Below, in pieces: positions 10,441 to 64,000 of a stretch of 64,000 nucleotides of DNA (positions are counted from its first letter, which is position 1; each line of letters starts with the position of its first letter). A program made the translations under genes and the position numbers. Source of the stretch: Amycolatopsis antarctica (GTDB lineage Bacteria > Actinomycetota > Actinomycetes > Mycobacteriales > Pseudonocardiaceae); NCBI RefSeq assembly GCF_002262875.1, contig NZ_NKYE01000009.1, positions 62,001 to 126,000 on the forward strand. Reading direction: 5' to 3'. Under the pieces are notes generated by a model. The model had not been told where the DNA came from, ran no database searches, and saw nothing but the letters and a program-made list of their open reading frames with translations.

Positions 10441-10582
10441 GTTCTTGTCTGGTGGCGCGCGGGTCGGCCCGATCATCCGGGTGACGCGAGCCGGACGGCA
10501 TGCCGTGCGGGGTTCGCGGGCATACCGTGGTCTCAGTCGGCTCGCCCGATCTCACCCAAAATTCTGCTGAATGAGAAACGGT

Positions 10583-10597
10583 TTGCGGATTCCGCAA
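10583..10597. promoter_or_regulatory. Perfect palindrome, likely operator of the TetR regulator
   Basis: TTGCGGA-T-TCCGCAA is a perfect 7-1-7 inverted repeat located 14-23 nt upstream of the TetR start. Size, symmetry and position fit an autoregulatory TetR-family operator that also controls the exporter genes downstream. The call rests on symmetry and position only. Confidence 0.6.
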
Positions 10598-10619
10598 GTT
10601 TTTCACTACAGTGCGGCAG

Positions 10620-37148: not shown

Positions 37149-37297
37149 GCTGCGGGTTCGCGCCGTCTCGTCAGGGAACTTCTGTACCAGGGTGCGAGTA
37201 GGGCCGGGCAGCGTTGCGTGTTTGGAGCGCAGGGGTTGGCAGAGACTGTGGACATCATGTTGCGAAACGTCTTCGACCTGGCTAGACGGGAGGCTTG

Positions 37298-37762
37298 ATG
37301 TCGTACGAGATGAAGATCCGAGAGCTGATGGCCGACTATCACCGGCAACGCGCCTCGCTCGCCGAGATGCAACACCGGATGAAGGAAACAGTCGGTACGG
37401 CCGTCGCGCCGAGGCAGGCCGCGAAGGCCACGGTCAACGCGAACGGGGAGCTCGCTGAACTCACGTTTCCCACCAACGCCTACAAGAGCATGGCGCCGAA
37501 GGAACTGTCGACGATGTTGCTGAAGGTCATCGGCGATGCTCGTGTGGACGCGATGAGGTCGGTCACCGGGATGATCGGTGCGCAGCTCGGCGACGGCAGC
37601 GAGACCATTTCGGACCTGCTCGGCCCCGATGCCGACATCACCAAGCTGATCACGAGCGACTCGTTGATGGCACCGGAGGTTCGCGAGTACCTGGGTGGCG
37701 ACGCGGTGCGGCTCGACCAGGAGGCGGCGAGCGCGGAGGAGGAATCGTGGCCGAAGAAGTAA
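37298..37762 (+). CDS. YbaB/EbfC-family nucleoid-associated protein
   Basis: A 154-aa protein with the YbaB layout: a long N-terminal helix (MKIRELMADYHRQRASLAEMQHRM), a beta-hairpin (AKATVNANGELAELTFP) and a C-terminal helix (LSTMLLKVIGDARVDAMRSV). YbaB proteins bind DNA as dimers. In actinobacterial T7SS loci they recur beside WXG100 genes, where they may instead act as substrate partners. ATG at 37298 follows ACGGGAGG; TTG at 37295 is less likely. Its 3' end overlaps the WXG100-like gene by 16 nt, so the two are coupled. Confidence 0.85.
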   Translation: MSYEMKIRELMADYHRQRASLAEMQHRMKETVGTAVAPRQAAKATVNANGELAELTFPTNAYKSMAPKELSTMLLKVIGDARVDAMRSVTGMIGAQLGDGSETISDLLGPDADITKLITSDSLMAPEVREYLGGDAVRLDQEAASAEEESWPKK

Positions 37763-38136
37763 GGGTCGACACGGACCGGCTCGCCACCGTGCCGGAGGCT
37801 CTTCGTCAGGCGAACGCGCTGGTGCAGGACTTCCAATCCGCGGTACGGCGGCTGGCCGCGGGCACGACGGCGATGTTCGGCGCGGAGGGCACGATGCGTG
37901 CCGCCCAGGACAAGTACGACGAGGCCTGCGCGAGCTTGGCTGAGGTCGCCGAGAACCTGGAGGCCGTGGTCAACGAGTCCGCGCGCCGGATCAACGACGT
38001 TCAGCGCAACTACGTGCGGACGGACGCCCAATCCGTCGCCTTGGCCGACGACGCGGCGCGCGGCATTGCCGACGCGACACCGGGCGTCGACGGCCCCAAC
38101 CGCGGCGCTGTCAACCCTGGCCGCGTCACGCGGTAA
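37747..38136 (+). CDS. WXG100-like small helical secreted protein
   Basis: A 129-aa protein forming two long helices (VPEALRQANALVQDFQSAVRRLA and MRAAQDKYDEACASLAEVAENLEAVVNESARRINDVQRNY) separated by a turn. In WXG100 proteins this turn holds Trp-x-Gly; here it reads MFGAEG. The YxxxD/E-like export signal may be in DKYDEA. Such proteins dimerise and leave the cell through the type VII apparatus. GTG at 37747 lies inside the end of the YbaB gene. Its proximity to the giant ORF suggests it helps to export that product. Confidence 0.8.
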   Translation: MAEEVRVDTDRLATVPEALRQANALVQDFQSAVRRLAAGTTAMFGAEGTMRAAQDKYDEACASLAEVAENLEAVVNESARRINDVQRNYVRTDAQSVALADDAARGIADATPGVDGPNRGAVNPGRVTR

Positions 38137-38216: not shown

Positions 38217-39050
38217 GTGGTGTCGGGTCCAGTGGATGGGGGTGGTGGTTCTGAGTGGGGGTGGGCGCAGCCGTTTTTTTTGATGACGATGGGTCAGCGG
38301 TTGCCGGAAGGTTCAGTGGGGGAGTTGCGGCGTCGTGGGGTGGTGTGGGGTGAGTTGGTGGGTGGGCTGGGTGGGTTGGTGGGAGTTGCAGATGTGACGG
38401 ATGGGGTGTTGGGAGAGGCGTTGGTGGGGGATGTGGGGGATGAGGTGCGGGGGTTTGTGCGGCGCTTGGGTGAGGTGGGTCCTGGGTTGGTGGGGGCGGT
38501 GGGGGGGTTGGGGAGGTTGTTGGGTGAGGTGGCGGTGGAGTTGGAGCATGGTTTGTGGGCCTTGTTGGTGGAGTTGATGTTGTTGGCAGTGGAGGTGGCG
38601 CGGGCGGTGTCGATGGCGGTGGCGACGTTGGGAGCGAGTTTGGTGGGGTTGGGGGCGCGGGTTGCGGCTGCTCGGGTGTCGATGATGGCGGTGTTGCGGC
38701 GGATGGCGTTGGTGGGAATGGGTGAGGTGGTGGAGGAAGTGGTGCTGGATGTGGGGGTGCAGGTGGCGCAGTTGTTGTCGGGTGGGCGTTCGGGGATGTC
38801 GGGGCAGAGCGTGGGGATGTCGGCGTTGGGTGGTGGGTTGGGTGGTGGTGTTGCTGGTGGGTTGCGGGATGTGGTGGGTCGGGTGGTGGGTCGGGGGTTG
38901 TCTGGTCGGTCGGGGGAGGTGGTTTCCAGTGCAGTGACGGAGGCTGGGGCGGAGGTTGTTGCTGGTGGGGTGTTGGGGGGTGGTGATGTGGGGTGGGGTG
39001 CGGTGTCGGGGGTGACGACGGGTGCTGTGGGTGGTGTTGCTGGTTGGGGA
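38217..39050 (+). other. Extreme G-over-C strand bias in the N-terminal coding part of the giant ORF
   Basis: The plus strand here is almost free of C and full of GTG, TTG, GGG and GGT codons, with many G runs of four to seven (for example 38500-38506) and a T8 run at 38274-38281. The bias stops abruptly at about 39050, where C-ending codons return. It encodes the WXG100/CpnT-like helical domain. Origin by transfer or mutational bias is possible; the G runs could form quadruplexes. Confidence 0.9.
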
Positions 39051-42000
39051 GACCTGCGCGACATCACCGTCCCCGACGTCGACCTCCCAGACACCACCAG
39101 CACCAACGACGCTGAGGGCGCGACAACAGCGACCGGCACCACCGGAATCGCAGACACCATCGCAGGCAGCGCTACGGCGGCTGCTCTCCCTGCTGGCCGG
39201 ACATCCGGTGATGGAGCCGCCAGTCCAGCCACCACGCAGCACGCGACCGCGCGCACACTCGGGGCGGCACAACACACCGGTGCATCGCAAGACAGCGAAA
39301 CGTCGCAAGAACCGAGGGCGCCACACGAGGCGGCCGGGGTACAGGAGACCGGGAGTCCGATCCGGCAGACACCTTCCGCCGAAGCCACCCACCGACAAGC
39401 AGCCACGATCCCCGACACAGCCTTCACAACCTCCGAAGTGACGAACTCCTCGGTCACCTCGGACACCGTGTCGGAGCGGGGGTTCGAGTGGTCGGGCTCC
39501 AAAGCATCGTCGGAGCCGACTGACGCCTCGTCGATGCGCACGCCCGTCGACGAGGTACCTGACGAGACCATCGGCCAGGCGCCTGAGCGTCTGAGCACCG
39601 CCGTCTCGACCGCCGCACCCGAAGACGTAGCGGACCAACGACCGGAGCCGCAAGAAGACAGCGCCGTTCGCGACGGCTCACATCACCGCGACGTCCGCGG
39701 CGCCGTCGTCCAGGACGTGACCGACGCTCCGGTCGTGGGCGCGTTCGCTGGCACGCAGCCGGGCCAGGTGGGATCGACAGCACCGCCGCCGAACACCGTG
39801 GCCCCGGCAGGCGCACCGCAGGCATCCACACCGCAGGCATCCACACCGCAGGCGGCGGCGCCGCAGGAGCCAGGTTCATCGCGCAACACGGCGTTGCCCG
39901 GGTCGGTCCGCACGACGCGGGACCGGGCCAGCGTGGACAGCTCGACGCGTGTCGTGACCGACTTCTTGTCGACGGAAGCCGACGCGCCGGACGCGACGAC
40001 AGTGGGCAAGCACGAGAGCCCGGCCGTCGAGGATCTGGTTTCGACGGCGGCGGCCATCCCCAACCGGGCAACCCCGGGCGAACGAGCCGACGAGCGGGAG
40101 GCGATCAGCGAGCCGAACTGGCCCAGCCAGCAGCCGGACGCCGCACGAGCCGGTGGCGACCGGACCCCGATCGACCTAAGCGGGTTGTCCCTGGAGTCGG
40201 GCGAACCGGCCCGACCGGTCTCCGTGGCGCACGGGTTCACCGCCTTGACCGACCTGCGCGGGCGCGTGATCGGTGCGGTGCGATCCACCCGCGGTGACAA
40301 CCAGTTCGTGGTAGCTGCCCAGCGGATGTTGCGCAACCCGCCGGTCAGTCTCGCCGTCCGAGTCCGCGGCCCGAGGGGGGACCGCGAGAGACATCGACCG
40401 TTGCAGCCCGACGCCTTCTTCCTCGTCTTGGACGAGGACACGTCCATGGGCGCTCGCGCGCTCGCCGATGGTCTTGCCGCGCAGGCGAATCCGCCACTAC
40501 GAGCATTTGGTTCCGTCGTGCTGATGCGCGCCGCCGCAGGCATCGACGCGGGGCCGTACGGATTTGCCAGGTCGTTCCAGCGGGCGTTGGCGCTCCTGCA
40601 CGGCGTGAATTTGCCGGTGTACGCGCCTACCGAGTCCCTCGGACCGGATGGCGGCACGGTGCTGGAGCGCGGGCGGTGGCGTCGATTTGACCACGGGGCC
40701 GAGACGCGTGCCGAACAGGAGCGGCTGAGTTCGGTGTCGCAGCCCGGGCTGACCTGGCAGACGCAGCGGCTGGAAGGCCCGGACGGCCGTCGGTCCGGCC
40801 TGTTGTTCTACGCAGAGGCGGACTCACGCACGGCCGGGGTGGTCGATATCGCCTCTGGCTACCGGTATGGGCAGACGGGCGAGCCAGGGGGCCTGCGGTC
40901 CAACGCGTTGCTGGTGTTCGTGGACGTGGACGAGTACGGCAGGTTCTTGGTGCACACGCCTGCGGGCAGTGTCGTTCCTCAGCCGGGCGGGGCGTTCGCC
41001 GACATCGTGATGGAGCATGATCCGGATCCGGAGCGGATCTGGGACGCCATCGTTCTGGTCGCCCCGTACGCCGCCGACATCGCGAACTCCGGAGTCTCGG
41101 AGTTTGCCCACGTTTACCACACCGTCTACGGCAGGACGGTGGACGTCGTGGCGCCTTCCGGCCCGGTCGGCCTTGACGTCAACGCTGGCCGCATGGAACT
41201 GAGTGACACCGAATGGACGATGGTGTCCGCAACGCCTGCGAAGGCCGACGATCGGCGTCTGCGGGTTACTCCGGTGCACGACGCCGCGGGCCGACAAGTC
41301 GGCGCGTACCTGCACGTACACGGCGACTACGCCGTGTACGACGCTATGGTCCGATCGCGAGCGTCTGACGAAGTCCAGCCGTGGCGCACCATGCCCGGGT
41401 ATCCGCCCCAAGCTGTCGTCGGGTACGCGGAAGCACGCCTTGACAGCATCGCGGAGCGACGCCGAGCGCCCTGGGTCAACGATCTCGGGACGGCCGACCC
41501 GTACACCGTCGCGTTCCGCGGTGACGTGGTGCGGTTGGAAGTGGTCGACTCAAACGGCACGTCGATCGCGCAGTTGACCGGCGGCAGTCTGGCCGGGCTG
41601 CTGCGTGAACGCGGGATGCTCTTTCACGCGGACGCCCGGAAGGCGCTGGCCCTGATTGCGGCCAACAGTCCTCGGATGGGTGGTGATCCGGAGTACGCGG
41701 AGGCGGCGCAGTTCCAACGGGCACTGGCGGGATATGGCATCGACCGTCCGGTCTATGTCGCCACGTCATACGCGCGGATCTCCAGCACACACAACGTCCG
41801 GCTGTTGTTCACCGGCCCCGGTGTCTTCCGTCGTATGCACGCCGCGGACGCCGACCGTGCCCGGCAGGCACGGCAGGGTCTCACGGTGGCTCGTGGGTTC
41901 CCTGACGCCGCCAGTCTGCGTACTACGGTCAGGTCCCTCGTCGCGCAACTGAACCCGACGGACCCGAACGTGTTCGGTTCCTATCTGGGGGAGGTCGGCT

Positions 42001-45000
42001 CGGTTCTCGGCGACTCCGACGTCGCCCGCCGTCTACCGGACATGCTGCGTTCCGGCGGAACCGTCGTCCGGCTGCAGGCCGTGCCACCTGATCCGCTGAC
42101 CGACCTGGACCTCGTCGTCGAGGTCGTCGGAGTGGGTGCGCCGCGTCGTGCTCAGGCCGACCAGTCGCACAAGGTGAGCGAACACGAGCTGTGGTCACCA
42201 CGCGGTACGCAGGAGACAGTCACGCTGACCGAGGGGGCCGGCGGACGCATCGTCCAGGCGCACGACGTGCGGTTCCGGGTCAGGATCGCGTCGGTCGGCG
42301 AGCAGGACAGACCGGTCCAGGTCCGGGAGGCCGAGGCGACGGTCCCGATGTGGCTGTCGCACGTCGAGCGGCGTGCGGACCCCGGCGAGTCCCCTCAGTT
42401 GCGATCCTCGACCGTGGTTGGCACCGAGGTCGCCGGGCTCTCCCCGTTGTTCGGTGCGTTGTCGATGGCGCTGGACCTGACCGATCCGACGGCTATTGCC
42501 GCGGTGAGCCACTGGCTGGCCGGGATGGAGTCCGGCAGGCGAGCACGCGACCTGCTCGAGGGCCACCCCGTCAGCGAACGTTTCGGGCCGCCTGAGCAGG
42601 CCAGTGGAACCATCAGGATGGCCTTCGCCCCGAACGTGAATCCGGAGCAGGGTGGTGCCGTGACGGCGGCGACCGCCACACGAACCAGCCACACGATGAC
42701 CGGACACGACGGCGCACACGCCGTGGGCTGGGTCGGGCCGGTGGCCCTCGCACGGCACAGCCAGCGGTTTACCGCCATCTTCCATGTGACGCCGGTGGGT
42801 TCGGAGCAGTCACAGGAGTTGCGCGGGGCCGTCGAGGGCGTCGCCTGGCAGGCGGTCCGACGGCGCAGCTCCCCGCCCGCGCCTACCACCGTCATCGCGT
42901 CAGACCTCGATGCGCTACGGACCGAGGCCGCGTGGGTCCGAGCACACCACGTCGGCGTGGTGAGCAGCGTTGGTGTAGCGGAACGCGAACTGCGCAGAAT
43001 CGTCGTATCGGCCCGAATGACGCCCGTTCAGGCCGAGACCGTCGTGCGTGAGCTCGCGGATGCGATGCCGCGGCTGGTCAACGCCGACGGGGTGGCGGTG
43101 GCGGTCGGCAACCTCCGGGTGATTCCGACGGTCATCCCGGCCGCGAGGCCGCACCAAGCGCCCGCGCGGGATGAGTTCGTCGCCTATACCGACGTCGCTC
43201 GGGCGACCAGAAGAAGGTTCGGGGCCCAGCGGTGGACCTACGACCTGACGGTAGACGTACTGGCCCCGGGAGGGACGGCCAGGATCACGGTGCCGGACGC
43301 GGTCGAGATCGTCGCGCCACGACGGCACGAGGTCGAGCCGTTGATCGTCGCCGAGGGCGAGCCAGGGTGGCCGAGCGGGTCGGCGCGGCCGGTCGACTCG
43401 CCGCCCCGGCCGCCAGCGGAATCCTCGGGCGTGGATGTCCGCCGCGCCGACGGCGAACGGGTGCTGGCCGACGAGTCCTGGCGGCACAGTGACCGGACCG
43501 TCGACGACCCGGCGGCGGCGTGGGCACGGCACCCGCGGCCGGTGGACCCGGCGCGGATAGACGATGTGCGCGACCTGATGGAGCCAGCCCGGCACACCGC
43601 CGAGGCGGGCGGACTGCGCGACGACAGCGAGATCCAGGTCACCACGGACGGTGCCCGCCCGCGGCTGCGGCTCCGAGGCTGGCGAAGCCCGGTGGCTTTC
43701 GAGGTACGCAGGCTGGAGTTCCCCGGCCAGGGCGATGAGCCGGGCACGGTCGTGCAGGACCGCACCTTCCGACTGTATGTACACAACCCCGACCGCCTCG
43801 ACCTCACGACGTTCCGGGACGCGGCCCGCGAAGGCGCCGCCCGGATCTGGAACAACGGCTATGCGCTGCCGCGCGGCGACCAGTTGAACGTCCACATCGC
43901 GTTCACCGACGACCCCGACGAGGCGACCGGAACCATCACCGCCACGCGGCCCGGCACGGCGGTCAGCCAGACCCGGATTCCGGTCGACGCCACGCCGGCG
44001 CAGTTCGCGCACGAGATCGCCGGGCACTTCGGCGGACTGGACGACACGTACCTCGTCGCCCGGCCGGACGCGCCCGTCTTCCAGCACAGCAGAGGCAGGG
44101 TCGTCCGTCACCTCGACGGCGAGGTCGAGGTCGTCGGCCGGGGCCGCGTCGTGGACGATCGGGGGATCATGGGCGCGCGGGCCGGTCACCCGAGCGCCGC
44201 GGTCACCCCGGCGAACCTCTGGCTGCTGGACAAGCGCGGCCCCAGTCCTCAGTTCATCCGGCCCACGGTGATTGACCCGGACACCGGTCTGCCGGGCGAG
44301 CAGCCGGTGAACCCCAACGGCGGCGGCTCCCTCCGTTCAGCGCATGCCGCCGATCTGGTCGAAGACGGTCCCGAATGGCCCGGCGACGCTGTCGGCACCG
44401 TGCTGCTCGACGCCGACGGACGGCTGCACGGGGTGCATTTCTACCCGCCGGACAGCCGTGCGGCCCATGCGGCACGCAACCACTCCGTCACGTCGTCCGA
44501 GTCGATCTACGTGTTCGCGGGCGAGCACCACCTGGGGTTCGCGGTCCACGGGCCGGACGGGATGGTTGGCCAGGACGGCGCGCGGTTCGCGCACACCGTC
44601 ATGGCCGCGCTGCCCAGTGGCGCCGGCGGCCGGCCGCTGGCGCTGGTCGTTCAGCGCGCAGGCACCGGCCGCGACGCCGTCCTTCCGTCGCCGGCGGAGG
44701 ATTTCCAACGGACGCTGGCGACGTTCTACGCCGACGACCGGCAGGTTTCGGCGCTTGACGACTTTGACGTGTGGCAGTCGTTCTCGCAGAGATTCCCCGA
44801 GAGCGGGGCCGCGGTCTCGCCGCTGTACGCGCGAGGCAGGGCGGCGGGAGCCGTCTATCACGGCCGCGGTGCGGTGGCAGACCGGGTCGCCGCGATGCGC
44901 CTGGTGCAGGCCGCACCGAGCCGGCTGATGACCTTCGCGGACGGCGACAGCGGTGAGTCGGAGGTGACTGCCGCGCCCTGGGGCCCGGGCGATGATGCGT

Positions 45001-57000: not shown

Positions 57001-60000
57001 TCGACCGACGTGTCTTCGCCACGACCACCGTCATGAGCACCTCTGTCGGCATGGTGGGCGTGGACGCACCTGGGACGTTCCGTACGTTCCATCCGTCCGC
57101 GAGCGAGGCGACGGTGCGGGCGCGGTGGGTGCGGCCGCCGCTCGGCGCTCTCGTCGACGCCACGCCGTTGCGCCGGGGGCTCTCGGAGCTGCTGGGCCAC
57201 GTCACGACCGACTCGCGCCGCCCCGGTTGGCTCCCGGCCGTACGGGCGCAGCTCGACGTCGACTTCGCGGACCCCGTGGTCACGGCGCGTTTCGGCGAGA
57301 TGCTCAATCACGGCGGTGTGCTGGTGCGGCTGGGTGGCGAGAACGGAACGCCCAGGGTGGAGGTGACGCTGGCGGTCATCCTGCTGAGGTGGACCGGTCC
57401 CGGCCTCGCCGAAGCCACCTACCGGATGTTCGTCCGCTGGCCGGACCTGCCGCCTGACCCGCACCGGGTCGCCGAAAGGGAGGTCGACGTGCCGGTCGCG
57501 CTGTCCTGGCCGAGCCGCCGGGTCACCTATGCGGCGGGTACACCGACGGCCGCGACCGAGTGGGCTCTGGCGGAGATCAGCGGAGGACCGCAGCTGCACA
57601 CGGCACTCGTCGAGGACGGCCTGGATCGTCATCGACCACAGGTGACCGGCCAGCTCGCGCGCTGGATCGACAGCCTGCGGACAGGTGCCGGCGCCAGGGC
57701 GCTCACCAGCGGCGAAGCTCTCACCGCCCGGATCGGCATGCCCGGTCACGAAGCCACCGTGGCCGTGACTGTGAGTATGAGTCAAGAGGCCGTCGACATC
57801 ACCGAGCACGCGACGCAACTGCCACTGGGGCGGACCAACGGTGCGGGGCACGACTTGCTCTGGCGCAGAGGCGTGCATCGGCGGCAGTATGTCCCTGGCA
57901 GGCTCCGAGCTCGGCTGATACCGCTCGACCCGGAGGAAAGCGGGCAACGTCACGATCTGCCGATCACGGCGGAGTTCGAGGGTGCGGTGAGCCGGGTGCT
58001 CGACGAGCCGTCGATCTCGGGGACCGATCACCGTGAGTTGCGCTCGGAGGCGGAGTGGGTGCGTGATGCCCACATCGGTACGCCCACCAGATCCAGCCAC
58101 GGGGTTGCGCTCCTGCAGACCGCGCTCCGCGCGCTGGCCGACGCGGGTTACCCGCCGCGGGTGGGAGCTGTCCTCACGGCACAGTTCGCGGCCGCCCGCT
58201 CCCGATTGCGCTTTCCGCGTGGTGAACCGGTGGAGTTCGCCTTGCGGGAGGGTGATCGTGAGCTCTCCGTCGTCGTGGAGGCGGCGTTGACCCCGGCTGC
58301 CATGCCCTACCTGGGTTCCGTCGGTGGTGACGAGTTGGTCGTCACGCCCGCGTCCGGGCTGGCTTCGGGGCGATTCACCATGCACCGCTGGGTTTACGAC
58401 TTCACCGCGTCCGTCACCGTTACGCCCGCGGGCCTTGAACCGACCGTTCGTACCGTCACCGCGTCCGACGTCGTGGCCGTGGGGCCGCGCCGGGTGTCGG
58501 TGCAGCAGGCTGGGCTGGATCCGTTGGCGGTCATCGGGCTACCGGCGGTTCCGGGCGAGCAGGGATGGTTCGCGGGCGGCAGTGAACCGGGCGAGGTCCA
58601 CGCAAGGCCGGTGCGTGATGCCGCGAACCGGGTGGTGGGGGTCGTGTTCCATAGGGCGAGTGATGCGCGGCTGCCCGAGCTGGCCGACCTGTTCGTCGGC
58701 GGCGAGGACGGGCCGCCGGGTTTCGTCGAGTCGCACGTTCCCGGCGGGGCTCGGCGTCGCGCGCAGCGGACGGTCTTGACGCGGACGCGCGTACGTCGCG
58801 GGGTTGCGCCGTGGAGTGGCGCGCGGCCGTTCTTCGTGTTCGCGCACGGCGACGAGAACGGCCCGGGGCTTTCGGTTGGGCTCGACGGGCGGGCGCTGGC
58901 TCGTCGTGTGGTCGACGATGGCGTGCTACCCGCGGACGTCGACGTGGTGCCGTTGGTGGTCTGTCGCGCGGGCGGCCCGGACGGCGTTGCAGGTGACTTC
59001 GCGACGGCTTTGGCACAGTTGCGCGGTCAGCCGGTGCGGGTGGTCGCGCCGACGAACGCGGTGCGACTGTCCGACGACGGCACGACGGTGCACAGCCGTG
59101 ACGACGGCGAATGGAGAACCTTCGACCCGGCGAACGAGCACTTGCTGGCACGCGTGCGCGATGCCCGTCCGCGGATGCAGTTCACGCCCGATGCGGCCCC
59201 GCTGCGGGCGGCGGTGCTGGAGGTGCTCGGCGACACCGCGGACTCCTACCGCGCCCAGGTCGAGTCGATGTTGTCCAACGAGGACGTACGCGCCGCCTTC
59301 GGCGAGTCCGTGGACGGCGGGCACCTCGTGCAGCTCGGTACGAAGGTGGGTGACTCCGAGCCCGAGATCTCCGTGACGGTGGTGGGAGTCGCCGACACGG
59401 GAATGCTTCTGGCCGACACGGGGCGCGCGGTCGACGTGGACAAGCACGAGCAACTGCGCGAGGAATCGGCACACTACGTCGCGGGCAATGTCCCGCGCAC
59501 GTTCAGCACGACGGCCGAGACCGGCAAGACCGGGCCGAGCGCGCTGCCGTGGTCGGTCCGCGTCCCGCTCCCGCACGGCGGCCTTGAGCTCAGGGCGGGT
59601 AGCCTGCTTAATTCCCGGTCGCCGAGCTTCAGCTTCACCCGCTTGGGACGCCGCTCGGACCGGCTGGTCGAGTCGGCGTCGGTGGTCGATCCGAAGGCCT
59701 ACCTGGTGCGCTACCGCGTCGAGGTCCGGTGGCCGGACGACGACTCCCGAGTCTCGTTCGCCGAGTCGAACCTGACGGTGGGGCTCACCTGGGCTGACCC
59801 CGGCTCGCCGGTCACCGCCGCTGTGACGGACCCCGTGACGCACGCCGTGGACCACGCCGAGTTGACCGGAATCCGCGCACTGTTCGACCGCACGTCGGCG
59901 CGGGTCGGCGGGTTCCGCGTCAACGACCCGGAGGTCCGCCGGTTCCGTACCTGGCTGGAAGGAATGCCACACGACGCCGCGCGGTTGTTCGCCGGTCAGT

Positions 60001-63000
60001 CCGTCCGTGGGCGGTTCGACTTCCACGATCACATCGGTACGTCGGTCGTCGTCCGGCTGGCGGACCGGGCCAGCCGTACAGCGGATGTCGCGCGGGTCAC
60101 GGCGAAGACCGAGCACACCGACGCGCGCACCGAGACCTACAAGGACGAGCATTCCGTTCAGCGTCGGCAGGGCTTGCAGATGCGCGGGTTGGGTAGCGTC
60201 TCACCCATCGCGTGGCCGGCCACCATAATGGTCGAACCGGCGCTCGGCATCGCAAAGACATCTGGGGACCTGACGAGAGTCACGCACGACCACACGCGCG
60301 ACGTCACCCAGCGTTTCGACGGTGAGCTGGAACGCCAGCGGTTCGGCATCATCTATGTGCTCGACGTTCTCGCCCGCGACGAGACGACCCTGGACCTCCG
60401 CTATCACAGTCCGGCCACTCGCACCGGCGGCGCGGACCGCATCGATGCCGAAGCCGTGGTCTGGATGCGTGTTCCGGACACGCCCGAGGTAGCGGACGAC
60501 GAGGACGCGATCGAGGTCCTCGCGGACGAGGCCATGGTCGACGCCGAGCCCGCCGCGGACCAGCCCGCGGAGCCGACGCCGACGGCGGAGGAGGCGGACC
60601 AGGTCCGGCACCGGATCGCGGCCAGCTTCGAGATGGATGCCGGACAGGTCGACGCGATCGTCGGGCCGGTGTTGCAGCGCTTGTCCCGCGAAAGGCGGGT
60701 CCGGTCACGGCACCTGGCGCAGATCGCCGCCGACATGCGGCTGTTCGTCGCACGCAATACCCGTGAGCTGGCGACGAAGGCCGACGCGGTCAAGTTCCCG
60801 CTGAGCGCCTACCACCGCGGGTACCCCGACATCTTCCTGAGCGCGACGATCTGGCCCGCCGAGCAACCGTACCGGGGGCCGGTCGTGGGCGAGACGACCA
60901 GCCTGAAGACGACCGTGAAGTACGAGCACTTGGTCTCCCGCGGCCGAGCGGTCGAGTGGGATGCGGACATGACGGTCTCCGGGCGGGCGACGCTGGGCGC
61001 GGTCCGGGCGTATGTGAACGGCGCCGCGGGTTACAGCGTCAAGCGCGACACCGACGAGGGATCGGTGACGACTAGTTCGGTCGACCGCTCATCCTCGGGC
61101 CAGGCGCACCGGTGGATGTACGACATGGACGTGGCGGTGTCGATCGGCGGCCGGTGGGCGGAACCGACGCCGGTGCTGGACTGGCACGGTGAACCGAGCC
61201 TGCGCACCTCGGTCGAGGTGCGCGCGCCGCGGCTGCACGGGTCCGAGCGCGACTACCGGCCGACGGCCGACGACGGCGTCTGGCGCAGCAAGACCGACGA
61301 CCGGGCGCCCCGCTTCGCCCGAGCGGGCCACCTGCCCGTCGACTACGAGCTCGTGGCCTTCCGGCCGACGCCGAGGCTGCTGACCACCATCACCGGAATG
61401 CTCGACAGCGCTAGGACGCACTCGGTCTGGAACGTCGTACGCCGCCCGTGGCTAGGAACCAAGAGACGCAACTTCGACGAGCACGTCTCGCGCCGCTGGC
61501 TCGGGGCCAACGACCGTGCCAGGCCTGAGGTCGACCAGCACGACGCGAGCCCGGCGGCGCTCGAGGCGTGGACGGAACCGACCACGCGGATCAACCGGTT
61601 CGACATCGCTGCGGTGTGGCGGGACACCCTCAAACTGCGCAGGCCGAGCACCGGGGGACTGGCTGGCTGGCGCGAGCCGATCGCCCGCGTCGACCTGCTC
61701 AGCTACCGCGGAAATCCGCGCATTCTCGCCGTCGACGACGAGCACCAGTTCCGTTCGCAGGCCTCGGTCCGGGTCGCCGCCAAGGAACGGGAGCAGCGCT
61801 CGGCCGCCTACTTGGTGAGCCAGCGCAACCTGGCCATCAGCACCTGGGGCGTGGCTCGCGGCACTGCCGGGCTGGAGTACTCGCACAAGATCAAGAACGC
61901 CACAGAACGCAGCACCACCAACACCGCGACCCAGGACGGCGAACAGTCGCGCACGACTCGCGGCTACCTCGTGTCCTACGACACCGAGACGGAGGTTCGG
62001 GCGGCAGCGCGCCACGACTGGTGGGATGCCCTCGGATTCCGGCATCGCGGCTCGTCCCCGCAGGACCTCAGCGCGGCGCGCAAGGCCACGCTCGTCGCCG
62101 ACGCAGAGCGGATGTGGGTGCCCGCCAGCGAGATTCACACCGTTGGGGAGCTCGACGCAGACAGCATGGCCATGCTCACGCCGGAGGACGCCGCGCGAGT
62201 GGCGAAGGCAGGTCCGGCCTCCGCCTATCCGGCGGGTGAGTCCGGACCGGGCCCGGTCGCGCCCGCGATGGTCGGGCACGGGGTCGGCCACGTGCAGTTG
62301 CACACCGCGGAGGCGGCGACTGCCACGCTGGAGCACATCTCCAGCGCGGTCGAGGCACACGCCCAGGCATACCGCAGCGCCCGCAGCATGCAGGAGCTGG
62401 TCGAGGACCAACTGGCCAACGCCGGAGTCGGCCAGGCGTTCGATCGCATGCTTAACGGCGGCCTGAGCCTTTTCGTGCCGCAGAACGTCGCCATCGGCAA
62501 GATCGAACATCGCGTTCAAATCATCGCGCGGCTCGGCCAGGGCCGGTACCTCGACCGGGTACCAGGCTTCGAGATGAGCACGACAAGGGGCAGCAGGCAC
62601 CGAGCCAGGACGACGGCCACCCACAGCAACACCGGTCAGGTCAACCTGGTCGCGTCCGCGATGACCCCGCTGGGCGAATCGTCCAACACGTACGCGTCCA
62701 CCGGCGGTCGGCTGGCCGCCCACCGCGAAGCGACCTCGGCACGCACCAGGGCCGACGATCGGCGCGACGGTGTCCGTGTCGCGACGACAGCCGACCGAGT
62801 GCGGTTCGTGCATGACCTGGAGATCACCGTCGAGGTCAGCACCTATGCCGCTCGCTCGCGCCTGGGCATGATGGTGTCGCCGCTGGCGTCCGGGGGCGAC
62901 GGCAAGTACCTCAGCGGGTCCAGCGGTCCGGTCTCGTTCACCATTGCGGATGCTGCCCGCTCCGTGCTGGCTCCGGCGGAGCTGGAACCGGTGAAGCCCG

Positions 63001-64000
63001 TAAGCGAGGTACCCGGCTGGTGGCGCCGGGAGCGCGTCGAGGCGGGCAAGCCCGTCCGGCTCCGCCCGCAGTCGGTACTGGTCATGCTGGCACATCCAGC
63101 GGTCGCGCTGTACCGGCTAGTGGACTTGGTGGTGCGCGAGCCGGGGTCGACGAGGTCACAGCTCCGACCGCAGGCGTCGCACCGGCTCGCGACAGCGCTC
63201 GACGTACACCTGCGCGCCGGACGACTGCCCGCGCTGCTGTCGGAAGAGGGCTACCGGATTACCTTCACACGAGGAGAACTACGGGCGCTGACCGTGCGCC
63301 TGGATCTGTCCCATCGGGTCGTTGAGGCGGTGCAGCCAGGGGGAATCCAGCGAACGGGCACCACGTCGGTGTCGGCTACGAACACCTCGAACGTGGAGTA
63401 CGGCCTGATGGCGGGCACGGCGTTGGCGGCGGTTCCCCCAGGTGCCCCCGGTTCCAGAGTTCCCGGGATCGACCTGGTGTCCACGCTGTTGCCGATCGCG
63501 AACTCGTCCAAAGCCATGACCAACGAGGTCTTGGGCAAACCACACGCCAGCGGCAAGGACGCTGCCGAAGAAGTGCACTACCGGGTTCGTTCCGTTCCTC
63601 GCTGGGTGGTCGTGCCCGAGTTCCGCGGAAACCGACGAGGTCACCCCGTGACGTCTGAACCCGACGACCCGATGTGGCTGTTCGCGGACAGCTCGGCCCT
63701 CGCCGACCTTGGCATCCCCGTGCCGGTGACCTCGGCGTCGCAGGAAGCGGCTGGCCAGGCGGATGGTGCGGGCCTGCCCGCTCGGGCCGGTGAACTGCTG
63801 TCGATCCCGGACGGGCCGCGCTACCTCCCGATCGACGGACTGCTTCGCGACGTCGAGCGGCGCCTGGGACCACGCGCGCTGACCCTGCTCCCAGCGGCCA
63901 GTCCGGACGACCGCTCCGGAAATCGCGCAGCGCTGCGCGCACTGCTCAGCGGCGGACTCGACGCGGCAAGGGCCGCCCGCCTGCAGGAGGCCCCGGAGCG
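38220..64000 (+). CDS. Giant T7SS-linked 'lonely Cys'-type protein, 3' end outside window
   Basis: One uninterrupted frame runs from GTG 38217/38220 (after an in-frame TGA at 38214) to the window edge: 8,593 codons and still open, over 900 kDa. I checked the same frame at 40.9, 45.0, 50.0, 55.0, 60.0 and 63.9 kb. Layout: residues 1-275, CpnT/WXG100-like helical domain (WGWAQPFFLMTMGQRLPEGS); 280-725, low-complexity Thr/Ala/Pro linker; 726-2056, diverged repeat R0 and a zincin-like motif HEIAGHFGGLDD (1931); 2057-6790, four large tandem repeats; 6791-7000, truncated repeat; 7000 onward, beta-rich regions. It is preceded by T7SS-associated, YbaB and WXG100-like genes, so export by type VII secretion is likely. 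A toxin domain may lie beyond the edge. Which GTG is used is uncertain; ATG 38283 is another option. Confidence 0.9.
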   Translation, partial: MSGPVDGGGGSEWGWAQPFFLMTMGQRLPEGSVGELRRRGVVWGELVGGLGGLVGVADVTDGVLGEALVGDVGDEVRGFVRRLGEVGPGLVGAVGGLGRLLGEVAVELEHGLWALLVELMLLAVEVARAVSMAVATLGASLVGLGARVAAARVSMMAVLRRMALVGMGEVVEEVVLDVGVQVAQLLSGGRSGMSGQSVGMSALGGGLGGGVAGGLRDVVGRVVGRGLSGRSGEVVSSAVTEAGAEVVAGGVLGGGDVGWGAVSGVTTGAVGGVAGWGDLRDITVPDVDLPDTTSTNDAEGATTATGTTGIADTIAGSATAAALPAGRTSGDGAASPATTQHATARTLGAAQHTGASQDSETSQEPRAPHEAAGVQETGSPIRQTPSAEATHRQAATIPDTAFTTSEVTNSSVTSDTVSERGFEWSGSKASSEPTDASSMRTPVDEVPDETIGQAPERLSTAVSTAAPEDVADQRPEPQEDSAVRDGSHHRDVRGAVVQDVTDAPVVGAFAGTQPGQVGSTAPPPNTVAPAGAPQASTPQASTPQAAAPQEPGSSRNTALPGSVRTTRDRASVDSSTRVVTDFLSTEADAPDATTVGKHESPAVEDLVSTAAAIPNRATPGERADEREAISEPNWPSQQPDAARAGGDRTPIDLSGLSLESGEPARPVSVAHGFTALTDLRGRVIGAVRSTRGDNQFVVAAQRMLRNPPVSLAVRVRGPRGDRERHRPLQPDAFFLVLDEDTSMGARALADGLAAQANPPLRAFGSVVLMRAAAGIDAGPYGFARSFQRALALLHGVNLPVYAPTESLGPDGGTVLERGRWRRFDHGAETRAEQERLSSVSQPGLTWQTQRLEGPDGRRSGLLFYAEADSRTAGVVDIASGYRYGQTGEPGGLRSNALLVFVDVDEYGRFLVHTPAGSVVPQPGGAFADIVMEHDPDPERIWDAIVLVAPYAADIANSGVSEFAHVYHTVYGRTVDVVAPSGPVGLDVNAGRMELSDTEWTMVSATPAKADDRRLRVTPVHDAAGRQVGAYLHVHGDYAVYDAMVRSRASDEVQPWRTMPGYPPQAVVGYAEARLDSIAERRRAPWVNDLGTADPYTVAFRGDVVRLEVVDSNGTSIAQLTGGSLAGLLRERGMLFHADARKALALIAANSPRMGGDPEYAEAAQFQRALAGYGIDRPVYVATSYARISSTHNVRLLFTGPGVFRRMHAADADRARQARQGLTVARGFPDAASLRTTVRSLVAQLNPTDPNVFGSYLGEVGSVLGDSDVARRLPDMLRSGGTVVRLQAVPPDPLTDLDLVVEVVGVGAPRRAQADQSHKVSEHELWSPRGTQETVTLTEGAGGRIVQAHDVRFRVRIASVGEQDRPVQVREAEATVPMWLSHVERRADPGESPQLRSSTVVGTEVAGLSPLFGALSMALDLTDPTAIAAVSHWLAGMESGRRARDLLEGHPVSERFGPPEQASGTIRMAFAPNVNPEQGGAVTAATATRTSHTMTGHDGAHAVGWVGPVALARHSQRFTAIFHVTPVGSEQSQELRGAVEGVAWQAVRRRSSPPAPTTVIASDLDALRTEAAWVRAHHVGVVSSVGVAERELRRIVVSARMTPVQAETVVRELADAMPRLVNADGVAVAVGNLRVIPTVIPAARPHQAPARDEFVAYTDVARATRRRFGAQRWTYDLTVDVLAPGGTARITVPDAVEIVAPRRHEVEPLIVAEGEPGWPSGSARPVDSPPRPPAESSGVDVRRADGERVLADESWRHSDRTVDDPAAAWARHPRPVDPARIDDVRDLMEPARHTAEAGGLRDDSEIQVTTDGARPRLRLRGWRSPVAFEVRRLEFPGQGDEPGTVVQDRTFRLYVHNPDRLDLTTFRDAAREGAARIWNNGYALPRGDQLNVHIAFTDDPDEATGTITATRPGTAVSQTRIPVDATPAQFAHEIAGHFGGLDDTYLVARPDAPVFQHSRGRVVRHLDGEVEVVGRGRVVDDRGIMGARAGHPSAAVTPANLWLLDKRGPSPQFIRPTVIDPDTGLPGEQPVNPNGGGSLRSAHAADLVEDGPEWPGDAVGTVLLDADGRLHGVHFYPPDSRAAHAARNHSVTSSESIYVFAGEHHLGFAVHGPDGMVGQDGARFAHTVMAALPSGAGGRPLALVVQRAGTGRDAVLPSPAEDFQRTLATFYADDRQVSALDDFDVWQSFSQRFPESGAAVSPLYARGRAAGAVYHGRGAVADRVAAMRLVQAAPSRLMTFADGDSGESEVTAAPWGPGDDAFFVFVQAERPARQGLVAPGAVVARHIDRVAGATIAERGSVVLWHDSPDGYQAVRSFAGDFQRELDRLTRRNRPVYAPSSGARLTVRHGTGGAAAVIDGGGIIRRFDHRAEDQALSAREAAFFADNASTGRRDWELRTRLGWFVGYRLQAPDHERDARLIRYVSSVSGLAVFADVDDHGRFLFDTPLGTAVYTGTELATFVVRQVRQRHALNIPQRIYLVASRSARLDHGGATQFATTLQGVFGWDVPVMAPTGVVPTDGNGSTGLSFDDGGWASVLPAETDPRRWFPVAMHNAAGRVVGVLLTAYRQAGSSDFLGEVGGGHWPPTRGPEVETTFGSSLRHDLSNHRFDRGKQARWVDSSGRPNTFFVDVHGTGGTHFTVPGSGRWTGQDLSRVLADQGWLGHLANFPSVTLLACGVGGLRADSAARTFAEAIRSMGLSRRVHAADTYVAMMPTVRIPFTSVKTATFAVGPSAPGSFRTFDPQGAEERATADLVRPSPVGTVDASPLRRELAAVLDDGRGWQARVPVSEVFSDAAVTASFDRILDYGGYVVLLGGANRVPRAQVQVAIVQMRAMGDGQTQAMVRFRVRWPDGTPSTSRVVDGEADLVVRFERPRSGAVRSVPVPGPAGWASARITGWAALPERLLSDRSDANDAALTRRVVRWVESLGAGEPATALVGGAERVTRLTGRHADITATVALTLGPNAWGVTLPGGEVHGGRTLGGEHDIVWRRADRHRRVVYGTATVHVRPTSQPDVQPRRITIDVVVAADAAVPPARSVREVSDAEAEWVRDAQMGVAVGAGHLDTVRQTAVDLLAEAGLSRPAVTAFEQEFAARRSRLRPLDSRSVELPVSWDGGEATVVIGATATPATAAYRGEFAEDRIVLTPRFGDPVELPAHRWAFDLYLRVRLETASAAPVDRIVSLTDVMFAAPRRDKARDAGLDPLARANPILIPRSEAAAVHSMSSTDEPDVEIDADAASLTAVSITSSAMELAEDLVATPVPIDGITGVLIRDDDGLLRGVHFHPPTSAEAEAARQAATGESTDPDEPILVFAGEDDVGFAVTGPDGTVRQTGARFAHVVIGALGVEGGGSRPVVLAVPRAAETRQGMPYSPAEEFQRTLTTFYADDRLVLATTAVTVSADDTESWRTFDVPMAAHAVAFSRLYANGRLAGAVYHGREGVADRLRAMRLVEAEPGRVMTHVGDGTGPVTEQAAPWGSGSAAFFVFVQTPLPARESRAASGAQLADLMHTAGFGEYDDTVDSVVLWRDSPDGYRQVDTFAGAFQRRLGDLGGRDLPVFAPSSGARLQVVDGVDGTSSVVVHGGGTVRRFDQVAEEQALLAREAALFPVDRPVGDPDWELFDAGGHLRAHRLWAPDAELDARLVRYAVGEPLALHVFADVDPHGRFLVVTPSGTAAYTGTELAMFVQDRLGSFVVDRVRLVASRSARPDQGGALEFASQLDAVLGWDVEVLAPTGVVRLPRSDADTVSVDDGEWEVMRPARSSSDERTDELFTVPLTTSAGRVVGVALTGRRDQVTRLALETTGAGRWPPNSRLERSSVIHGEAALSQRQARWVDALGRVDTFFVVVHGNASRVSGSANWTGDQFARVLANMGWLTQAARFSSMTLLACSTGALDTPGSVAVSFSTALHELGLDRRVHAPSTVFSMGPDFWGPEAPGVLRTFHPSALTTANRARVDLPALVEPMNAAPVRRELGELLSGIDGADSLRPDWLAAFSDEAMTAAFDQLLDVDGRLVRLGGQDGVPRAEVLATMRLLRDLGTGRYEATYQLTVRWPDLPPDATRIVEGEADVPVRLSWPTPAAPGGVPPDDDGWTSARIIGLTRLRGLLLNAESDQYQPALTQQVDNWIDGLRSTDSGRALVSGLSRQTTLAGQDLTDVIVRLRLSGDSELFAEQGAESVSGTAFDGRHQVVWQRPGRRRLYVDGTVELEMTSFLRDGPPQHESVPVRALFERAAPTRTWQVSGAEARAEAEWLRDVGLGIAESSVHVDDIWDAVVAASDEAGLPPEAIAEFEEGFTTASRSILRLPGVGPVAEFPLSRSGTEAAVVVWASLIPANEPHRGALAEDQVMVTPPSGQVMSLAAHRWAYDLHATVTVTTAVGARHERTVRASEVMVVGPRRADAGVAGLFLNDPRTVLRPVDGITGELVRDSDGRVRGVHFHRPDSRYAEDARSRALASWPGLDDPILVFADLSDGNFVVAGPAGPVRQDGAQFAHTVIGTLADDRGDRPFVLAVPGAAGLPAVWFQWTLTSFYADDRLVLATSSDTVSPANLESWHRMERRLPDGSDAVSPLFARGRISGVVYHGRDGVQDRLRAMRLVEAEPRRLLTLEGETGSPAADNPVPWGGADEAFFVFVQTDRPAAHGPMGPGAVLADRLGPVIPPTRDVVLWQDSSDGYRVPDSFTAQFQQALSESAERNVPVFAPSSGAQLGVHVGAGGPAMVVHDGGTVRRFDHAEERLAVAARMAAPPLAVEPDWALRTPDGRLVGLRLSGPHARSDAWRIHYAATGPVQPTLYVFADVDTHGRFLVRAPGGLFAYSGSELATVVHLAHRQETGDAAGESVRGIRLVASWSGRPDHGGAAEFAGKLDRDFGWDAEVFAPTGRVVLGESGVDVRGGRWEAVRPVLPRVGVDRIWLDAVPLHDRYGRVVGVNLSVDRDHVVVNSLSESRRGHATFEPDEGAVVRHWSKPRWVNRLGSDDTFFVAIHGRPLNFVVNSAAIHMTPEQLALLLHDHGWLRQAANHSSITLLASATGAVETPVSAAEVFARAVRRHGLDRPVFAPTTEFVVTDESWGVDGPGRFRTVDPSGYELARRAVLERPLVTATVDAAPLRQEIADLLARGATGASLAELRRQADALFSDHTMSGQAGYVHDRGGTPVQLGGGAVAPRAEVTVKVIALRSIGDDRYETTYQIDLRWPDQPRDAPRVLVGEADLVIRLESDWQSRTRQWQAPWAPHQWGRVWLHGAPSLHRTLLLGGALGDRDRNNPQLTDQVERSVQTTFTGDAARDLVNGQSRTIPIGGPQSGITAAVTAELDQDATQVRVDAEDIPLGRTVGAVYGVILRTREQRRQYVFGSVRVTLTDQATWGQQVPVIAVLEDAMVQTVGEPAVSTDVDELRSEAEWVRDASVGSWMSDEAYQAVRLLATTALVRAGHPDLTGGSFNEMFAAAWTMRGPRRIEPEFTLPLLDGRISVVVESRLVPAAMPYRGPVEQRQFLLTSTEGPSSDPFPAHRWAYDFDATVTVTSPTMLPGIESVALPDLLVAGPRRASVRRAGFDPLPDDGQEPQDGPRLHRRSTASGTPSATWHDRGPTDVPGTLAPSGLGESAPQVARRPIGGVTGELLFDSDGRLRGIHFHPQGSTRAAQARWLAVGGWPGVADDEILVFADEHEIGFAVHGPDGVIGQHGAEFAHTVQGALPADHRGTGYVLVTPDAATPRRQGSNSPAKAFQQVLTAFYADDRPVVATTAGTVSPDDRASWTVLAEPFADGDETFSPLFVRGQVRGAVFHGRAGVTDRLRALHLVEAAPGRVVTFDGDSAVPISDEPAPWGYGSDAFFVFLQTERPEARGPDGPGAVFARQLHRQVLGPYAALGTSVVLWHDTPDGYRLPESFAGLFQQTLDYDTLANLPVFAPSTGARLHVFDGAQGPAVVVHDGGIVRRYDHQAEEQVTAAREAALFPVRPAAVPNWQLRRPNGELVGFRLQRPDVVRDAARIRSARWLSSVSSVLFVFVDTDEHGRFLVQTPSGTAVYSGTELATFIHHQHEVASGTSAPAPVNMVHLVASRSARPDHGGAAEFAGVLGRALDWDVQVVAPTGVVSVVDSSLQIEHGRWEIVHPHLETVGFDHQSLNSLVLRDAAGRVVGVDLTGDRGMAAADTLRLLGSGTWPARNNLTRQASFAPGAIANVRNWSSPRWPLISGRPDTFVVSIHGAESTFGGNRNGVRWTGDHFAQLLDRHGWLRQAARYSSITLWACSSGSLLRPEGAAASFSTALRTFGLDRRVFATTTVMSTSVGMVGVDAPGTFRTFHPSASEATVRARWVRPPLGALVDATPLRRGLSELLGHVTTDSRRPGWLPAVRAQLDVDFADPVVTARFGEMLNHGGVLVRLGGENGTPRVEVTLAVILLRWTGPGLAEATYRMFVRWPDLPPDPHRVAEREVDVPVALSWPSRRVTYAAGTPTAATEWALAEISGGPQLHTALVEDGLDRHRPQVTGQLARWIDSLRTGAGARALTSGEALTARIGMPGHEATVAVTVSMSQEAVDITEHATQLPLGRTNGAGHDLLWRRGVHRRQYVPGRLRARLIPLDPEESGQRHDLPITAEFEGAVSRVLDEPSISGTDHRELRSEAEWVRDAHIGTPTRSSHGVALLQTALRALADAGYPPRVGAVLTAQFAAARSRLRFPRGEPVEFALREGDRELSVVVEAALTPAAMPYLGSVGGDELVVTPASGLASGRFTMHRWVYDFTASVTVTPAGLEPTVRTVTASDVVAVGPRRVSVQQAGLDPLAVIGLPAVPGEQGWFAGGSEPGEVHARPVRDAANRVVGVVFHRASDARLPELADLFVGGEDGPPGFVESHVPGGARRRAQRTVLTRTRVRRGVAPWSGARPFFVFAHGDENGPGLSVGLDGRALARRVVDDGVLPADVDVVPLVVCRAGGPDGVAGDFATALAQLRGQPVRVVAPTNAVRLSDDGTTVHSRDDGEWRTFDPANEHLLARVRDARPRMQFTPDAAPLRAAVLEVLGDTADSYRAQVESMLSNEDVRAAFGESVDGGHLVQLGTKVGDSEPEISVTVVGVADTGMLLADTGRAVDVDKHEQLREESAHYVAGNVPRTFSTTAETGKTGPSALPWSVRVPLPHGGLELRAGSLLNSRSPSFSFTRLGRRSDRLVESASVVDPKAYLVRYRVEVRWPDDDSRVSFAESNLTVGLTWADPGSPVTAAVTDPVTHAVDHAELTGIRALFDRTSARVGGFRVNDPEVRRFRTWLEGMPHDAARLFAGQSVRGRFDFHDHIGTSVVVRLADRASRTADVARVTAKTEHTDARTETYKDEHSVQRRQGLQMRGLGSVSPIAWPATIMVEPALGIAKTSGDLTRVTHDHTRDVTQRFDGELERQRFGIIYVLDVLARDETTLDLRYHSPATRTGGADRIDAEAVVWMRVPDTPEVADDEDAIEVLADEAMVDAEPAADQPAEPTPTAEEADQVRHRIAASFEMDAGQVDAIVGPVLQRLSRERRVRSRHLAQIAADMRLFVARNTRELATKADAVKFPLSAYHRGYPDIFLSATIWPAEQPYRGPVVGETTSLKTTVKYEHLVSRGRAVEWDADMTVSGRATLGAVRAYVNGAAGYSVKRDTDEGSVTTSSVDRSSSGQAHRWMYDMDVAVSIGGRWAEPTPVLDWHGEPSLRTSVEVRAPRLHGSERDYRPTADDGVWRSKTDDRAPRFARAGHLPVDYELVAFRPTPRLLTTITGMLDSARTHSVWNVVRRPWLGTKRRNFDEHVSRRWLGANDRARPEVDQHDASPAALEAWTEPTTRINRFDIAAVWRDTLKLRRPSTGGLAGWREPIARVDLLSYRGNPRILAVDDEHQFRSQASVRVAAKEREQRSAAYLVSQRNLAISTWGVARGTAGLEYSHKIKNATERSTTNTATQDGEQSRTTRGYLVSYDTETEVRAAARHDWWDALGFRHRGSSPQDLSAARKATLVADAERMWVPASEIHTVGELDADSMAMLTPEDAARVAKAGPASAYPAGESGPGPVAPAMVGHGVGHVQLHTAEAATATLEHISSAVEAHAQAYRSARSMQELVEDQLANAGVGQAFDRMLNGGLSLFVPQNVAIGKIEHRVQIIARLGQGRYLDRVPGFEMSTTRGSRHRARTTATHSNTGQVNLVASAMTPLGESSNTYASTGGRLAAHREATSARTRADDRRDGVRVATTADRVRFVHDLEITVEVSTYAARSRLGMMVSPLASGGDGKYLSGSSGPVSFTIADAARSVLAPAELEPVKPVSEVPGWWRRERVEAGKPVRLRPQSVLVMLAHPAVALYRLVDLVVREPGSTRSQLRPQASHRLATALDVHLRAGRLPALLSEEGYRITFTRGELRALTVRLDLSHRVVEAVQPGGIQRTGTTSVSATNTSNVEYGLMAGTALAAVPPGAPGSRVPGIDLVSTLLPIANSSKAMTNEVLGKPHASGKDAAEEVHYRVRSVPRWVVVPEFRGNRRGHPVTSEPDDPMWLFADSSALADLGIPVPVTSASQEAAGQADGAGLPARAGELLSIPDGPRYLPIDGLLRDVERRLGPRALTLLPAASPDDRSGNRAALRALLSGGLDAARAARLQEAPE
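39816..39860 (+). repeat. 15-nt tandem repeat in the linker of the giant ORF
   Basis: CCGCAGGCATCCACA occurs twice in tandem (39816-39845), followed by a partial third unit. It encodes PQAST-PQAST-PQAAA inside the low-complexity linker. Confidence 0.9.
43770..44220 (+). other. Zincin-like domain within the giant ORF
   Basis: The segment FRDAAREGAARIWNNGYALP ... FAHEIAGHFGGLDDTY ... GIMGARAG resembles the metallopeptidase-like domains of actinobacterial secreted giants, with a downstream Met-turn-like GIMG. The zinc motif at 44010-44045 is HExxxHxxGxxD, one residue longer than the standard HExxHxxGxxD. It may be inactive or differently folded. Confidence 0.6.
44388..48005 (+). repeat. Large tandem repeat R1 of the giant ORF (1,206 aa)
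   Basis: Begins AVGTVLLDADGRLHGVHFYPP and contains four related alpha/beta units. The fourth has FFVDVHG (His2630) and TLLACGVGG (Cys2674). A beta-rich spacer with HRWAFDLYLRV follows. Confidence 0.85.
48006..51458 (+). repeat. Large tandem repeat R2 of the giant ORF (1,151 aa)
   Basis: Begins GITGVLIRDDDGLLRGVHFHPP. Same order as R1. The fourth unit has FFVVVHG (His3844) and TLLACSTGA (Cys3885). The spacer ends in HRWAYDLHATVTV and VVGPRRADAG. Confidence 0.85.
51459..55028 (+). repeat. Large tandem repeat R3 of the giant ORF (1,190 aa), Cys lost
   Basis: Begins GITGELVRDSDGRVRGVHFHRP. The fourth unit keeps FFVAIHG (His4976) but reads TLLASATGA, with Ser5020 (TCC, 53277-53279) where the other copies have Cys. 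The spacer ends in HRWAYDFDATVTV. Confidence 0.85.
55029..58589 (+). repeat. Large tandem repeat R4 of the giant ORF (1,187 aa)
   Basis: Begins GVTGELLFDSDGRLRGIHFHPQ. The fourth unit has FVVSIHG (His6193) and TLWACSSGS (Cys6237). The spacer ends in HRWVYDFTASVTV and VGPRRVSVQQAGLDPL. Confidence 0.85.
58590..59220 (+). repeat. Truncated repeat R5 of the giant ORF
   Basis: Starts like the others (RDAANRVVGVVFHRASDARL) but jumps directly to a single unit with FFVFAHGDENG (His6876) and PLVVCRAGG (Cys6915). The first three units are missing. It leads into the C-terminal beta-rich part. Confidence 0.75.

Follow-up and report, generated by a model that had tools for sequence, protein, structure and literature searches.

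The open frame and its layout

The window analysed here is a stretch of 64,000 nucleotides from Amycolatopsis antarctica (contig NZ_NKYE01000009.1, positions 62,001 to 126,000), and it ends inside a single open reading frame (ORF) on the plus strand that encodes a giant protein and lies among genes of a type VII secretion system (T7SS; ESX). The frame starts at GTG 38217, preceded by a last in-frame stop at TGA 38214, and is still open at the window edge (38217..63998, plus strand, 8,594 aa). By adding the next 40 kb of the 260,045-bp contig (genome 6.34 Mb), we located its end at TGA 70551-70553 in window numbering, which gives 10,778 codons, zero N across the frame and a product of 1,153,898 Da (1.15 MDa). 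A first-pass annotation of the window had described a single frame running off the window edge with a product above 900 kDa. Both statements were borne out by the extension, which also revealed, where that annotation had proposed to look for a C-terminal domain, a glycosyltransferase-like tail.

From composition, 158 (dinucleotide model) to 210 (mononucleotide model) stops are expected in this frame and none was observed, with log10 P of about -69 under the dinucleotide model. The other five frames of the region contain 55 to 229 stops, and their longest stop-free run is at most 627 codons. GC content by codon position 1/2/3 follows the pattern of a gene along almost the entire frame (0.67-0.77 / 0.49-0.59 / 0.80-0.89), more weakly so in the first 400 codons (0.72/0.57/0.71). 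An in-frame stop or assembly break was looked for in 38217-64000, and no stop and no N were found; collapse of the assembly is unlikely because the DNA repeats of the in-window part scanned are only 62-78% identical to their reference copies. The observation of one unbroken giant frame is confirmed.

The protein begins with a head related to the WXG100_2 family, followed by a linker rich in serine and threonine (residues ~261-620), six long units in residues 640-7420 (U0, degenerate; U1-U4; U5, partial) and a conserved core block. The long units carry a ~105-aa repeat that resembles peptidase C80, some copies of which have an intact His-Cys dyad. The features are as follows, in window numbering.

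38217..64000 in the window, on to 70551-70553 (+): giant ORF, 10,778 codons
38262..39053 (+): N-terminal WXG100_2/CpnT-like head, residues 16-279; profile of seven relatives' heads, E 4e-22
40134..43586 (+): U0, degenerate first long unit, residues 640-1790; three C80-like repeats, dyad in none
43668..44231 (+): zincin-like domain, residues 1818-2005, by homology; metal-motif spacing non-canonical in this copy
44304..47831 (+): U1, residues 2030-3205; four C80-like repeats plus a half related to residues ~6990-7350
46089..46433 (+): dyad repeat, Cys2675; C80-like, His/Cys intact
47934..51401 (+): U2, residues 3240-4395; four C80-like repeats
49731..50030 (+): dyad repeat, Cys3886; C80-like, His/Cys intact; in AlphaFold2 (AF2) model m1895fbf5c9b2
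51429..54836 (+): U3, residues 4405-5540; four C80-like repeats, the fourth with His and without Cys
55014..58526 (+): U4, residues 5600-6770; four C80-like repeats
56778..57086 (+): dyad repeat, Cys6238; C80-like, His/Cys intact
58569..60476 (+): U5, partial unit, residues 6785-7420; one C80-like repeat
58827..59120 (+): dyad repeat, Cys6916; C80-like, His/Cys intact
59244..63716 (+): conserved core block, residues 7010-8500; hairpin modules, the fifth weak
beyond the window (+): second run of hairpin modules, mostly weak, residues ~8846-10212, by module profile matches
69825-70316 (+): glycosyltransferase-like C-terminal domain, residues 10537-10700, by homology to relatives

U1-U4 are mutually 39-47% identical by pairwise count. 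Their divergence is greatest at third codon positions (0.51-0.54, as opposed to 0.36-0.44 at first and second positions), which points to selection at the protein level through much of their history after duplication. Repeats extend to residue ~6,985 (59.2 kb), in keeping with the first-pass annotation, which had followed them in frame to 59 kb. Family libraries had little to say about the giant itself. With Pfam, scanned over residues 1-8200 and 8896-10778, nine 1,000-aa slices of the first stretch matched no family at E <= 0.1, and the second stretch gave a single below-cut-off match (SCPU, 0.054). NCBIfam gave two matches far below cut-off on residues 1-8200, both in slice 2 (estX, 0.022; a topoisomerase model, 0.08), and none on residues 9796-10778. 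No Pfam model matched the giant's own head in the direct scan; PF25547 (WXG100_2) was matched by the heads of seven of ten relatives, the other three being left out of that comparison.

C80-like repeats, hairpin modules and cargo-like domains

The ~105-aa repeat occurs in 20 copies within U0-U5. Sequence profile and predicted fold both liken it to peptidase C80, the domain with which MARTX and the large clostridial toxins cut themselves, and the models lead us to assign it a predicted C80 fold. Pfam PF11713 (C80) did not match the giant's own repeats, and the best relative scored 16.3 bits vs a cut-off of 23.8; because this cut-off was not reached, the repeat is named C80-like and not C80. The C80-like profile gave 0 matches on reversed giants, and E-values of the giant's own copies in iterated profiles are strong by construction. 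Eleven giants yielded 126 copies at E <= 0.01, of which the 122 inside the inclusion limit were aligned. His was present in all 36 of the 36 aligned copies that bear the Cys; a Fisher p of 7e-26 for this coupling was not used because the repeats share ancestry. Each of the eleven giants has at least one dyad-bearing repeat. The giant described here has 5 Cys in its 10,778 residues, 4 of which lie in HG...C repeats, so that the dyad is intact in 4 of the 20 copies; judging from the alignment, these four Cys are the predicted nucleophiles.

The placement of dyad repeats differs among the giants. They lie 150-360 residues ahead of a glycosyltransferase domain in the relatives G171 and G223, which is where a releasing peptidase would be expected; in the giant itself ~3,570 residues separate the dyad repeat from the glycosyltransferase-like tail, and in G174 the order is reversed. 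The C80-like repeat was also sought in a 902-aa protein of the ESX locus (82578-85286), with no match. Two C80-like copies were seen outside a giant, in a 469-aa ORF soon after the giant of G054 (G054:C4, 51656-53065 relative to the giant start).

In the core block, hairpin modules were located at residues 7264-7419, 7523-7673, 7814-7970, 8081-8245 and, weakly, 8345-8488. A module is ~155 aa long, with predicted hairpin strands of up to ~60 residues and sets of about five, and the models suggest that the block forms very long amphipathic beta-hairpins, as in pore-formers. A search of the giants returned 65 forward copies below 1e-3; the reversed-giant control (--max), a noisy one, gave 30 matches when E values as high as 10 were allowed, with 1e-7 and 1.3e-4 as the two under 1e-3, and the weak module copies rest mainly on their regular spacing. 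When the core-block profile was run against the PDB, a single match without meaning came back (E 0.8), and no T7SS or CpnT structure appeared for it among the VIA listings. Hairpin-module matches excepted, residues 8430-10350 had no relative at threshold among the eleven giants and 17 named loci; a profile-profile comparison of the core block with residues 8380-10500 was discarded, its master row having only 163 columns.

For the tail, homologous domains occur in G171, G223 and G174 (E 5e-18 to 6e-17), and the copies of these three relatives (3/3) match TcdA_TcdB PF12919 above cut-off; the giant's own tail does not match PF12919. A profile of the four tail copies led by those of the relatives (A7) matched alpha-toxin 2vk9 (E 6e-6) and TcdA (1e-4) in the PDB, its rows for ribosomal eL22 (E 0.3-0.6) being noise; the own tail alone gave only weak phmmer matches in the PDB (glutamate racemase, E 2.2; Lgt2, E 2.3), to which the A7 profile lent support. 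The zincin-like domain is present in 7 of the 11 giants, has no Pfam match and matched the PDB weakly as a profile (E 0.086). A Scabin-like ADP-ribosyltransferase lies near the C-terminus of G174, and the other nine C-terminal 500-aa pieces showed no toxin-type Pfam match.

Neighbouring genes, relatives and known systems

The genes ahead of the giant are the following.

35736-36455 (+): T7SS-associated accessory gene, 239 aa; NF033532 lone7para_assoc, 128 bits vs cut-off 85; start inferred from a GGAGG ahead of GTG
36513..37148 (+): LuxR-type regulator; PF00196, E 9e-15
37295..37762 (+): YbaB/EbfC-family gene; PF02575; homologue upstream of the giant in 8/8 relatives with usable flank
37747..38136 (+): EspC/WXG100-like small gene (weak); matches below curated cut-offs

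The T7SS-associated and YbaB-like genes that the first-pass annotation had placed here are supported by the NF033532 and PF02575 matches. Its WXG100-like gene holds as well, as an EspC/WXG100-like ORF with matches only below cut-offs; phmmer found no homologue of it in the relatives' flanks. Downstream of the giant we found two WXG100 genes, EccC, EccD, EccB and a beta-helix/AAA protein (EccA-like below cut-off). All nine giants that could be tested, this one and 8/8 relatives with usable flank, have EccC, EccD and EccB nearby; the count leaves out G171 and G156, which start near contig ends. Homologues of EccC, EccD, EccB and YbaB are up to ~35 kb away in G054.

An NF033532 homologue lies at most 3.1 kb from the giant's stop in 10/10 relatives. 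The family was found in 80/80 genus genomes, in 1-9 copies each, and therefore belongs to T7SS loci in general; a role as dedicated immunity gene or giant-specific partner was rejected. Three copies stand close together at G000:C11:39399-42654, perhaps another T7SS effector locus. Directly after the giant, a small ORF (L004:6584-6964; window 70584-70964) without Pfam or NCBIfam match may be an immunity gene or chaperone, and within the ESX locus the EccA-like AAA protein is fused to a right-handed beta-helix (L005:1280-4606).

That the giant stands alone is not supported. Repeats of its type occur in 19 of 249 family genomes, its own included; among the other 248 there are 18 matching genomes, in 16 of which the matches fall in open frames of 4,672-28,302 aa and in the remaining two in frames of 603 and 1,120 aa. 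The dyad-repeat profile matched 4 of 396 phylum genomes, again including its own. The core block was found in 19 of 80 genus genomes (own included), ten times nearly full length and in frames of 5,062-28,302 aa; a match in the same-genus genome G677 lies at C7:375296-378454. At ten related loci we rebuilt closed frames of 4,655-28,289 codons. Seven open with a head of this family; of the remainder, two (G171 and G156) have their start close to a contig end, and G140 begins within a linker, in a region with 35 N. The longest, of 28,289 codons, is from the same genus (G246:C2:2648313-2733182; loci L042-L046) and has 22 C80-like repeats, 11 hairpin modules and ESX genes just upstream, with no N in 160 kb. 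It is twice as long as SACTE_5178 of Streptomyces sp. SirexAA-E (13,652 aa), the longest toxin named in PMC3482391 (Biol Direct 2012).

PMC3482391 describes giant actinobacterial proteins that exceed 10,000 aa and bear arrays of caspase-like domains; some of the copies lack catalytic residues and are taken there to be structural or peptide-binding, and metallopeptidase and ADP-ribosyltransferase (ART) domains are among the toxin domains. The paper also records caspase-like releasing peptidases in T7SS toxins and compares them with the domains by which V. cholerae RTXA and the clostridial glucosyltransferase toxins cut themselves. The giant fits this kind, being a single actinobacterial chain of more than 10,000 aa beside T7SS genes, with a caspase-like array (dyad in 4/20) and with metallopeptidase- and transferase-like domains that both depart from the key motif in this copy; it differs in its 20 repeats, its glycosyltransferase-like tail and its runs of long-hairpin modules. 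Neither "C80" nor "MARTX" appears as a term in the 300,000 of 357,715 characters of its main text that were searched, and the five mentions of "hairpin" there concern other domains. The general kind is already known, and placing the repeat nearest to C80 refines it, because PMC3482391 already draws the RTXA and clostridial comparison. What is added here is that placement, the coupled His-Cys dyads and the sets of long hairpins; no strict His-Cys coupling, no long-hairpin sets and no frame of this group longer than 13,652 aa were found in the literature searched, which includes PMC3482391 in part.

With MARTX of Vibrio the giant shares its size, a C80-type self-cutting domain, several cargo domains and a proposed membrane passage of its own. 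MARTX proteins have one cysteine protease domain (CPD), RTX repeats and type I secretion, whereas the giant has many C80-like copies, a T7SS-type head and ESX genes as neighbours, and no RTX-type Pfam repeat was matched in the residues scanned with Pfam. By analogy, the giant would work like MARTX without being a member of that family. TcdA and TcdB likewise combine a C80-type domain and a GT-A-type glycosyltransferase in one chain; they differ in domain order and size, and the giant has a T7SS-type head and a glycosyltransferase copy lacking the canonical metal motif. CpnT-type T7SS toxins share the WXG100_2 head family (PF25547, which we take to be linked to CpnT) and the ESX neighbourhood, whereas CpnT is far smaller and has a single toxin domain. 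The first-pass annotation had likened the giant to "lonely Cys" proteins, which is presumably the NCBI name for such giants. This likeness is upheld by the neighbouring lone7para_assoc gene and the scarcity of Cys, and not by NCBIfam, no model of which scored above cut-off in the parts of the giant scanned; a literature search found no paper on a "lonely Cys domain".

Readings of the giant

The intact frame, the C80-like repeats with their coupled dyad, the homology of the head, the ESX genes near every testable giant and the enzyme-like domains form the basis on which we lean, with modest confidence, towards a T7SS-linked carrier of polymorphic toxins that processes itself and works like MARTX. 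The WXG100_2-type head, aided by small partners encoded beside the giant, would lead the chain to the neighbouring ESX machine. Outside the cell or at the target, the sets of predicted long amphipathic beta-hairpins may form or line a membrane passage. The few dyad-bearing repeats would then cut the chain and release cargo, here the zincin-like and glycosyltransferase-like domains and in relatives other enzymes, while the many dyad-less copies could serve as spacers or binding modules. The first-pass annotation had called the function of the family not known; this can be narrowed to a putative self-processing toxin carrier, while the passage through a type VII pore that it named stays an inference. 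The interpretation given in that annotation is, as a whole, partly supported.

The cargo-like domains of this copy leave room for doubt. The acidic metal-binding motif of the glycosyltransferase is kept in the relatives and not in the giant's tail (alignment A7), and the zincin-like metal motif, which every one of the other ten rows in alignment A9 has in canonical form, is out of register. Both look degenerate, and therefore the giant's own cargo may be weak or dead, or the giant may be mainly a surface scaffold. The latter possibility, a cell-surface scaffold or adhesin, would be an exported long stalk kept on the cell, in which dead repeats bind or space and a few live ones trim during maturation. 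It would agree with the degenerate domains, with a dyad in only 4 of 20 repeats and with the S/T-rich linker; we consider it rather unlikely, given that relatives bear known toxin-type enzymes (PF12919 and Scabin-like) and that every one of the 11 giants keeps the dyad at least once. A decaying carrier, in which the family carries toxins and this copy has lost cargo activity and survives as an open frame without toxin function, would explain the altered motifs of tail and zincin-like domain, yet 10,778 stop-free codons, a U1-U4 divergence highest at codon position 3 and four kept dyads make it improbable. That the frame yields several proteins, by internal starts or by immediate cutting into many stable ones, is most improbable: internal starts are conceivable, but no stop lies anywhere in the frame, and ten related loci have closed frames, seven with a head of the same kind.

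The coupled His-Cys pattern picks out, from dozens of repeats, the few that are expected to cut, and so gives exact predictions for proteomics. We also put forward, tentatively and as something we rather doubt, the wider idea that the giants are one-chain type VII delivery machines, with a passage of their own (sets of about five ~155-residue modules), their own C80-type cutters and exchangeable cargo. They would be the T7SS counterpart of MARTX and, if their C80-like copies are switched by inositol hexakisphosphate (InsP6) as in the related MARTX and TcdB, would be aimed at eukaryotes (such as amoebae, fungi or insects) over rival bacteria. Should the hairpin sets be pores, actinobacteria would have arrived at a weapon of the MARTX type that leaves the cell by another system. 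No type VII pore is known to pass a substrate anywhere near the 1-3 MDa of these chains, and because of this the size limit and unfolding requirement of the T7SS are directly testable at the giant loci.

Elsewhere in the region, the minus strand at window 34091-34921 holds a pair of neighbouring transposase-like fragments (88 and 184 aa; labelled by eye), with an alpha/beta-hydrolase-like gene on one side and the accessory gene on the other. After the ESX locus, O-methyltransferase, acyl-CoA carboxylase and chalcone/stilbene-type synthase domains (L005:4688-8405) may belong to a natural-product cluster.
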